From NCBI GenBank assembly GCA_903929765.1, contig CAIYVX010000022.1, forward strand, positions 1-41,461: DNA of 41,461 bases, written 5' to 3'. Below the pieces are notes generated by a model. It was not told the origin of the DNA. It did no database searches and was given only the letters and a program-made list of their open reading frames with translations. This document shows positions 2,130-21,523 of this stretch, piece by piece. The translations under genes and the position numbers were made by a program. Origin of the DNA: an uncultured Planctomycetia bacterium (GTDB taxonomy: Bacteria > Planctomycetota > Phycisphaerae > FEN-1346 > JAACEH01). Each line of letters opens with the position of its first letter. The first letter of the stretch is position 1.

Positions 2130-2158
2130 GTAGGGCGGATGCGTCGTTTGCAGCCGCC
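2130..2158 (+). repeat. REP hairpin, family 1, between trpB and trpA
   Basis: A GTAG head is followed by a hairpin with arms GGCGGATGC and GCAGCCGCC, matching the family-1 copies at 20647, 21344, 21472, 25494 and 27511. It fills the trpB-trpA gap and abuts the trpA start codon. Confidence 0.8.
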
Positions 2159-2181
2159 AAGTTAAACAGTTCTTCTTCCGA

Positions 2182-3381
2182 TTATTTCGCTGCCCCGCCA
2201 GTCAGCCTCGCCACCTCGACGCAATCCTTATCACCTCGCCCCGAAAGGTTCACGACGATGATCTTGTCCCGGCCCAACTGCGGCGCGAGTTTTTTCGCTT
2301 CGACCAGGGCATGGGCCGACTCGAGCGCCGGGATGATTCCCTCCAGCCGCGACAATTCGTAGAACATCGCCAGGGCTTCTTCGTCCGTGGCCATGGCGTA
2401 GCGCACGCGACCGGTGTCTTTCCAATAGGCATGTTCCGGTCCGACGCCGGGATAATCGAGGCCCGCCGAAACGCTGTGCACCGCCGCCGTCTGGCCCTCG
2501 GCGTCCTGGAGGACGTAGGTCATCATGCCGTGCAACACGCCGGGCTTGCCGGCCCCGAGCGTGGCCGAGTGTTTGCCTGACGCCAGGCCCAGACCGCCGG
2601 CCTCGACTCCCACCAGGGCCACGTCCGCCTCGTCGATGAACGGATAAAAAATTCCTGCCGCATTCGACCCGCCACCGACGCAGGCTGCGATCACGTCGGG
2701 CCACCGGCCTTCGGCGGCGCGGATTTGTTCGCGGACTTCGCGGCCGATGATCGACTGGAAATCGCGCACCATTTTCGGAAACGGTTCCGGCCCGACGGTC
2801 GAGCCGATGCAATAATGTGTGGTTTCCGCGCTGCCCATCCAATCCCGGAACGCCTCATTCGTCGCGTCCTTCAGGGTCTTCTGGCCGCTGGAGACCGACA
2901 CGACTCGCGAGCCCATCGCCTGCATCCGAAAGACGTTCAGTTCCTGTCGGCGGATGTCCTCGGCGCCCATGTAGACGTCGCACTCCAGCCCCAGCAGCGC
3001 CGCCGCCGTGGCCGTGGCCACGCCGTGTTGCCCGGCACCGGTCTCGGCGATGAGCCGCCGCTTGCCCATCCGCAGACAGAGCAGGGCCTGGCCCAGCGTG
3101 TTGTTGATCTTGTGCGCCCCGGTGTGGTTCAGGTCCTCGCGCTTCAGGTAAATCTTCGCCCCGCCCCAACTTTCCGTCGCCCGGCGGGCGAAATAGAGCG
3201 GGCTGGGCCGGCCGACGTAATTCCGGTAATAGTAATCGAGTTCCTCGTGAAACTTCGGATCGGCCTTGGCCTTCTCGTACGCCGCCGCCAACTGCCGGAT
3301 GGCGTACATCAGCGTTTCGGGCACGTACTGTCCGCCGTAAGGGCCGAACCGTCCGCGATTGTCGGGTACCTGGCTGAGCAC
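2182..3381 (-). CDS. trpB: Tryptophan synthase beta chain
   Basis: TrpB is the PLP enzyme that condenses indole with serine to make tryptophan. The protein has 399 residues, the normal size for the TrpB1 type. The PLP lysine is Lys91 in HTGAHKINN. The glycine-rich phosphate-binding loop appears as [10 protein letters not shown] near residue 235, and the ammonium/indole region [11 protein letters not shown] near residue 113 is intact. The start is a GTG at 3381 with the conserved N-terminal [15 protein letters not shown] immediately after it. It heads a trpB-trpA unit. A candidate promoter lies at 3437-3465 with a REP hairpin in the leader. Confidence 0.96.
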
Positions 3382-7121: not shown

Positions 7122-7162
7122 AGCAAAAACAACAACAGCCTCCCCCGGCAGTGCTGGGGGCT
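7122..7162 (-). terminator. Candidate terminator of the YjbQ gene
   Basis: Read on the minus strand, a GC-rich stem (AGC plus CCC arms, 7162-7137) is followed by GTTGTTGTTTTTG. It sits downstream of the minus-strand gene ending at 7230 and also separates it from the convergent fumarase-like gene. Confidence 0.45.
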
Positions 7163-7229
7163 TCAAAAGAAACAGCGACACCCTCACCCGCCGCTCAGAA
7201 TGTCCAGAATCTGGGCCTGGTTGGTTGCG

Positions 7230-19710: not shown

Positions 19711-19895
19711 CCGGGTGCCACACTTTAAAGCCTCGGCGCAGCCGAGGCCAAAGTGTGTTCTTTGTTGTGTTCGGCCGCGCCCATCAGGAGTTTTGCGTTT
19801 CCAATGAGAGTTCCAGCCGGACGGGCGCGAGTTGGCGCAACAAAACACACACTTTGGCCCCGGAGAAACGCCGGGGCTTCAAAGTGTGGCACCCG
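19711..19895. repeat. 185-bp palindromic element after xerD
   Basis: The ends CCGGGTGCCACACTTT and AAAGTGTGGCACCCGG are perfect 16-base inverted repeats. Inside each end is a further hairpin (GCCTCGGC/GCCGAGGC on the left, GCCCCGG/CCGGGGC on the right) closed by CAAAGTGTG. The layout is that of a non-coding MITE-like repeat. A related but shorter copy lies at 27357-27403. Confidence 0.7.
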
Positions 19896-19922
19896 GATTC
19901 CCAATTGGACAATCAATAGCAA

Positions 19923-20646: not shown

Positions 20647-20785
20647 GTAGGGCGGTTGCGCTGTTTGCAGCCGCCAGAATAAAAGGAAGAAGTCCAGTTG
20701 GTCGTTGTTGTAGGTGATATTTAACGGTAGCAACAAAGGAAAAGCAACGCCCATCGGAAAACGGCATTTGACAGTGGCGGCTACA
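20647..20785. repeat. REP-ended mobile element, copy A
   Basis: Begins with a full family-1 REP (20647-20675: GTAG head, GGCGGTTGC/GCAGCCGCC stem) and continues through about 100 bases nearly identical to copy B (21344-21500). The right-hand REP is reduced to GGCGGCTACAT, as if its hairpin were deleted. It lies 20 bases downstream of the RAYT stop and is non-coding. Confidence 0.8.
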
Positions 20786-20804
20786 TAATAGCCCGTCATG
20801 ACGG

Positions 20805-21326
20805 TTACTCTTGCGGAAGGGTCCAATTCGCCAAAGTCGCCGGTTCGGCCTGGCCCCAATTGATATCATACTCGCCCATTTTGACAAACCGTTTGAAGGT
20901 TGAATAGGGCCAATCACGTGCGCGAGTCACATGACCGTGTTTGACCGGGTTCCAATGAATGTAATCGACGTGACGTTTGAGATCTTTTTCGTTGCGGACG
21001 CAATGTTCCCAAAAACGGGGTTGCCAGACTTCGTGGGGCGATTTGGTTTTTGGAGGAAGCCAGAGCCGGTCGAACCGCGATTTGATGAGTTGCCAGCGCG
21101 TCGAAAAATCAGCATCGCCCGGCGGAAGTTCCCAGACGCAATGGAGATGCTCCGGCAGCATAACCATAGCCGTAACTGTGAACGGACGCTTGCTTCTGAT
21201 TTCTCGGATGGCTTGGCTCAGACATTTTCGCGCCCGCGGCTCGGTGAGAAAAGGGCGGCGTTCGTAGGTCACAACCGTGAAGAAGAATGTTCCGCCAGGT
21301 TGAAGCCAGCGACGGTATTCGGGCAT
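20805..21326 (-). CDS. REP-associated tyrosine transposase (RAYT)
   Basis: A 173-residue Y1/HUH single-strand transposase of the IS200-like TnpA_REP family. The HUH pair is His60/His62 in MLPEHLHCVWELP, and the nucleophile is Tyr122 in DYIHWNPVKHG, followed by the family ending DWPYSTFKRFV and YDINW. The start at 21326 is preferred because a longer frame would be translated from the REP at 21344-21372. REP-ended elements lie on both sides (20647-20785 and 21344-21500). RAYTs nick and spread REP hairpins through GTAG-headed recognition; the same head is seen here. Confidence 0.92.
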   Translation of the reverse strand: MPEYRRWLQPGGTFFFTVVTYERRPFLTEPRARKCLSQAIREIRSKRPFTVTAMVMLPEHLHCVWELPPGDADFSTRWQLIKSRFDRLWLPPKTKSPHEVWQPRFWEHCVRNEKDLKRHVDYIHWNPVKHGHVTRARDWPYSTFKRFVKMGEYDINWGQAEPATLANWTLPQE

Positions 21327-21343
21327 GGTGGCGATGCTTTCAT

Positions 21344-21500
21344 GTAGGGCGGTTGCGCTGTTTGCAGCCGCCAAAATAAAAGGCATAAGTCCGATTGGTC
21401 GTTATCGTAGGCGGATATTTAACGACAACAAAAGAAAAAGCAACGCCAATCGGAAAACGGCATTTGACAGTGGCGGCTGCAAACGGCGCAACCGCCCTAC
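21344..21500. repeat. REP-ended MITE-like element, copy B
   Basis: A 157-bp non-coding element whose 30-base ends are inverted repeats with one mismatch. Each end is a complete family-1 REP: 21344-21372 on plus and 21472-21500 on minus, both with GTAG heads pointing outward. The 98-base interior is shared with copy A and, in part, with 27468-27535. It begins 17 bases upstream of the RAYT start codon. Confidence 0.88.
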
Positions 21501-21523
21501 ATGACGGCAACAGCCGCACAAGA

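Follow-up and report, generated by a model that had tools for sequence, protein, structure and literature searches.

A tyrosine transposase gene between head-to-head GTAG hairpins: a probable REPtron in an uncultured planctomycete

How REPs spread, and which piece of DNA their RAYTs move, is the general question addressed by the locus described here, in which a transposase gene lies between two non-coding elements ending in GTAG hairpins. The window, meaning the whole stretch of DNA that was analysed, comprises the 41,461 nt of contig CAIYVX010000022.1 (assembly GCA_903929765.1); its source genome, G000, is an incomplete draft (96%, 3.83 Mb) of an uncultured Planctomycetia bacterium. The locus is best explained, with a probability of roughly 0.8, as a REPtron, in which a TnpAREP (RAYT) gene present in one copy stands between pairs of its own GTAG-tagged REPs, each pair joined head to head. 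This reading rests on the family and fold of the protein, the GTAG hairpins on both sides, 48 dispersed heads against 0 in a control, the same layout in relatives, the singlets found elsewhere in the genome and the lack of this head family (F1) in 60 relatives.

The transposase and its flanking elements

An earlier note on this DNA had described a complete Y1 transposase between two non-coding elements, here termed A and B, and this description holds, coordinates included. The features of the locus are the following.

20647-20797, unstranded: element A, a half-decayed doublet oriented like B
20647-20675, plus strand: left REP head of A, intact and identical to the left head of B
20775-20797, minus strand: right REP head of A, decayed (7 nt deleted; CGTC in place of CTAC)
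20808-21326, minus strand: RAYT/TnpAREP coding sequence, 173 aa, HUH motif H60/H62 and catalytic Y122 (basis: NF047646, invariant residues, 4ER8)
21336-21343, plus strand: conserved lead GCTTTCAT before the left GTAG of B
21344-21500, unstranded: element B, a head-to-head REP doublet of 157 bp, GTAG...CTAC
21344-21372, plus strand: left REP head of B (GTAG and hairpin), matching the head pattern
21373-21471, unstranded: interior of B, two facing REP tails and a short middle, the right tail being the genome-wide tail type 1
21472-21500, minus strand: right REP head of B (GTAG and hairpin), matching the head pattern
21501-21507, minus strand: counterpart lead CCGTCAT, ahead of the right GTAG of B

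The reading frame is intact, with its TAA stop at 20805-20807, and the protein scores 186.5 bits against the NCBIfam model for REP-associated tyrosine transposases (NF047646, cut-off 80). H60, H62 and Y122 are invariant across 22 relatives. A profile of the protein found a single PDB sequence (E 2e-62), namely 4ER8, the structure of E. coli TnpAREP with a REP hairpin bound, and this entry was also the best Foldseek match of the AlphaFold2 model (pLDDT 90.3; 47% identity, TM 0.81). Sequence and model together support the assignment of the protein as a RAYT/TnpAREP with intact HUH/Y1 residues and a predicted TnpAREP fold. The catalytic fold is common to IS200/IS605 elements, as Foldseek also matched the transposases of ISDra2 and IS608; however, the IS200/IS605 equivalog model NF033573 gives the protein only 22.4 bits, under its cut-off of 55, and the locus further differs from such elements in the inverted GTAG heads at its ends and in being single copy. 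No second gene of close kind occurs in the 3.83-Mb genome, in which the remaining Y1 genes are divergent. The relatives of the protein are largely from planctomycetes and gammaproteobacteria. The GC3 of its gene, 0.58, falls below the 0.77–0.86 of three neighbour genes, which suggests a foreign origin.

Both elements carry the common interior and REP ends that the earlier note had ascribed to them: A and B are direct repeats agreeing at 88% over 140 nt, with left heads identical at 29/29 positions. B is indeed a near-perfect 157-bp inverted repeat with GTAG at both ends, as its heads agree at 28/29 positions and its 64-nt arms at 51/64, and its single strand folds as one long hairpin of -59.6 kcal/mol (shuffles -23.3 +/- 2.9; z -12.5). 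It therefore has the short, non-coding form with terminal inverted repeats of a MITE, and the two inverted REPs in one hairpin of a REPIN or HH GTAG dimer (PMC3116915, PMC3733652), but at 157 bp it holds two long tails inside and is not dispersed. The right hairpin of A reads GGCGGCTACA-(7 nt deleted)-TAATAGCCCGTCATGACGG, compared to GGCGGCTGCAAACGGCGCAACCGCCCTACATGACGG in B; since the outer flank ATGACGG, common to the right ends of both elements, is still present in A, this element extends to about 20797. The right hairpin that A was said to have lost is thus damaged as claimed, yet degenerate and not cleanly missing. The interior of B, which the earlier note took as more than the usual short REP doublet, consists of two REP tails facing each other with some 20 nt besides, and doublets of like length adjoin other RAYTs (L095 and L157). 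B ends 17 nt upstream of the RAYT start codon, and A directly adjoins its stop codon; the heads at 20647-20675 (plus strand) and 21472-21500 (minus strand) bracket the gene in inverted orientation, GTAG outermost.

Dispersal of the F1 heads

Seven head types were named in this analysis, F1 being the head family of the window's RAYT. The F1 head pattern has 48 matches in the genome and none when reversed, thus the heads are not a product of chance. Exact GTAG is kept by 42 of the 48, and a simple codon model places 43 of them between genes; the model left the RAYT gene itself unscored, and its five calls inside a gene may be miscalls. When the 48 heads were read with 400 nt downstream, only the two of B had a convincing inverted partner. 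The 45 heads outside A and B are all singlets, consisting of one head and one tail, with no decayed partner detected within 400 nt, and the genome holds no copy of the full-length 157-bp doublet other than A and B. Where the earlier note asked for further genome copies starting at GTAG, the heads answer to this and the doublet does not; its pairing of a RAYT with cognate REPs is supported by dispersed GTAG hairpins of the expected anatomy, but B as an intact mobile MITE is not supported.

The singlets follow a layout of head, RYARTMAAA, a tail of type TGCCGTTTTCCG or GCTCTTCTTCCG, and then GCTTGSCGTTGCYG with a pyrimidine tract; one with a diverged tail lies within the window itself.

2130-2195, plus strand: dispersed F1 singlet, head at 2130-2158 followed by the diverged tail

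Conservation starts about 8–11 nt outside GTAG, as G-Y-Y-G-T-Y-A-T|GTAG, with positions -1, -2, -4 and -5 holding 1.1–1.9 bits; B carries this lead at either end. Two target-site explanations for the flanking bases were tried and set aside. The GTTGCYGTT that precedes GTAG does not covary within copies with the one that follows the tail, as a target duplication would (Fisher p 1.0), and TYAT as an IS608-like target site is contradicted by its presence at both B ends, just as AGYGAR flanks most ends of the RAYT units of another genome, G059, described below. Because of these two recurrences, the lead is more likely to be part of the element than a target site.

No match to the F1 family was found in 60 relatives, including the one genome of the same family, which fits a REP that is paired with this RAYT. 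The other Y1 genes of the genome were also considered as partners of the F1 heads and set aside, as different repeats occur in their flanks; inverted repeats of the types GGGTGCCACACTTT..., GGGTGGCATGGCGGC... and GGGTGGCATGGTCC... flank those at L234, L032 and L033, and a pair of the GGGTGCCACACTTT type also lies in the window at 19711-19899, between a XerC-like gene and the next gene.

In comparison to described REPtrons (E. coli TnpAREP, 4ER8; the RAYTs of PMC2817692), the locus has in common the HUH/Y1 protein, 47% identical to 4ER8 over the fold, the inverted GTAG heads on both sides, the irregular stem and the cognate heads dispersed between genes. It differs in that its singlets sit in a long conserved lead and tail context that is common to other head types, and in its copy number of 48 heads, where REPs usually number more than 100. 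This shortfall and the near absence of doublets weigh against the REPtron reading, as does the presence of other head types on the same lead and tail, by which the family would not be defined by this RAYT alone. Dominance of singlets is otherwise seen in only a few of the described GTAG families (14, 16 and 24).

What the transposase moves

E. coli TnpAREP binds single-stranded REP, though not its complement, and requires GTAG and a bulged stem, with cleavage at CT on the 5′ or 3′ side of the REP (PMC8266576). The F1 stem is likewise irregular, with a conserved W opposite G. By analogy with the E. coli enzyme, the RAYT would bind the single-stranded GTAG hairpin, cut beside it and join strands, thereby spreading heads. 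In this genome the accumulated product is one head with short constant surroundings (a lead of about 8–11 nt and a tail of about 30 nt), and doublets persist only at the transposase gene. Judging from the conserved bases beyond GTAG at either end of B, the cut may lie about 8–11 nt before GTAG; CT occurs within 12 nt before GTAG in 19/48 copies and within 31 nt after the head in 39/48. RAYT expression may in addition be restrained by the hairpin of B, which lies 17 nt upstream of the start codon. With one RAYT, a clean cognate family present almost only as singlets and a head separable from its context, it becomes testable here which piece a RAYT moves: head, singlet or doublet.

The flanks of relatives were surveyed by a mechanical scan of 104 related RAYT loci. 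The same GTAG head occurs on both sides, GTAG outermost, in 56 of these, and a doublet is present on at least one side in 42/104 and on both sides in 14/104. As doublets beside RAYTs are common in relatives, the arrangement of A and B appears to be that of an ordinary REPtron; RAYTs flanked by their REPs (PMC2817692) and head-to-head GTAG dimers (PMC3733652) have both been described previously. One relative, G059, carries three RAYT units (L085, L089 and L091) that are 92.6–93.9% identical over 676–685 bp in unrelated surroundings, with homology that starts 6–7 nt beyond the left GTAG and stops no more than about 8 nt past the right CTAC. These units appear to have moved whole, and such units can probably do so in general. 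REPtrons have been held not to transpose as a unit (PMC6006769), and the near-identical, head-bounded units of G059 speak against this claim.

The same could be supposed of the window's locus, in that the whole 854-bp unit from the left head of A to the right head of B would move as an IS-like RAYT transposon. The unit is bounded by GTAG and CTAC, and both the G059 units and the GC3 contrast of 0.58 with 0.77–0.86 would fit; however, the unit is single copy in its genome, two direct element copies exceed what one unit needs, and no empty site for the G059 units was found in the 60 relatives searched. Together with the published view of REPtrons as immobile units, this makes the proposal rather unlikely. 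Somewhat less credit still is given to B as a mobile MITE or REPIN that is itself the unit of dispersal, the singlets being doublets that lost one half. B does look like a perfect doublet, A displays how one head decays, and the singlets of P. fluorescens are regarded as defunct REPIN remnants (PMC3116915). No dispersed doublet was seen, however, among the 45 F1 heads or among the 38 copies read of a second head type, F2, and the singlets keep a well-conserved head, lead and tail without a trace of a decayed partner in the 400 nt scanned.

It is more doubtful again that A and B are hairpins, now immobile, which are kept for expression control of a domesticated RAYT. Their positions before the start codon and against the stop codon would suit such a function, and REP hairpins are thought capable of down-regulating RAYTs (PMC3733652). 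The same heads nevertheless occur at 45 other places, and in tail-selected copies they are better kept than their tails (0.028 vs 0.064 mismatches per site, as given below).

Heads, tails and other repeats

The lead and 30-nt tail of the dispersed units are common to F1 and at least six other hairpin types, with 54 genome occurrences of the tail and none of its control. Copies selected by the tail (n=56) carry F1 (23), F2 (17), F6 (6), F4 (3), F3 (2), F5 (2), F7 (1) or no head (2), a complementary stem being kept in each head type. The F2 head (GTAGGGTGGCTGCTTGCAGCCAC) has 71 copies in the genome. In tail-selected copies, heads are better conserved than tails for both F1 (0.028 vs 0.064 mismatches per site) and F2 (0.015 vs 0.057), and the tails of F1 copies intermingle completely with those of F2 copies (tail distance 3.48 between the two head types, 3.60 within; permutation p 0.91). 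Equal tail distances could be explained by a star-like burst from one master. A second tail type, however, occurs on F1, F2 (2 copies), F6 (1) and F7 (1), so that each of these four heads is carried by both tail types. As a one-master burst hardly explains this, some recombination between heads and tails seems to be needed, through either homologous recombination or the action of a RAYT.

The F2 head is also identical over 27 nt in G001, a genome of the same family, on other flanks. F2 with the following GCGG has 63 copies there (44 exact), stands upstream of a RAYT with 57% identity to that of the window, and was not accompanied by the G000 tail in any of the 24 copies read. The REP head GTAGGGTGGCTGCTTGCAGCCACGCGG has the same sequence in G000 (71 copies) and G001 (63; L084, L293-L322), which belong to different genera of one family, but its flanks differ between them; in G000 a partner RAYT for this head was not found. 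This is the most interesting lead to emerge, though drawn from short sequences in draft genomes.

Seven heads on one tail, four heads on both tails, the intermixed tails and the recurrence of F2 in G001 allow the tentative proposal that REP heads are exchangeable cassettes, in which RAYT-type strand exchange would swap the GTAG hairpin of about 25 nt on a scaffold particular to each genome, with lead GYYGTYAT and tail RYAATMAAATGCCG.... If so, one scaffold would carry many heads, and one head would sit on different scaffolds across genomes. We hold this possible but less likely than not; the mixed types may instead come from common recombination at short repeats, or from a few master copies that spread in successive bursts.

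Further repeats accompany these hairpins. Intergenic islands of successive short repeats, joined by the pyrimidine-rich TTTCTTCTTTTG and TTGCTGTTGCCGTT, are found genome-wide and in the window at 7142-7164 (minus strand). They comprise GTAG hairpins, GAAGCCCCCAGCANTGCTGGGGG, CACCCCTCTCCCTTGAGGGGAGAGGG, heptamer runs (CTGAAGT/CTGAGGT, CTTAAGC) and the AT-rich TTTTTAATTTTGCATTTTTAATT; GAAGCCCCCAGCANTGCTGGGGG has 145 matches per strand and, being near-palindromic, about 145 sites. Elsewhere in the genome, a Y1-like match (L037, contig C71) lies amid a different GTAG hairpin family, GTAGGGGCAGAGTTTATCTCTGCCC, and is apparently a second REPtron in G000.
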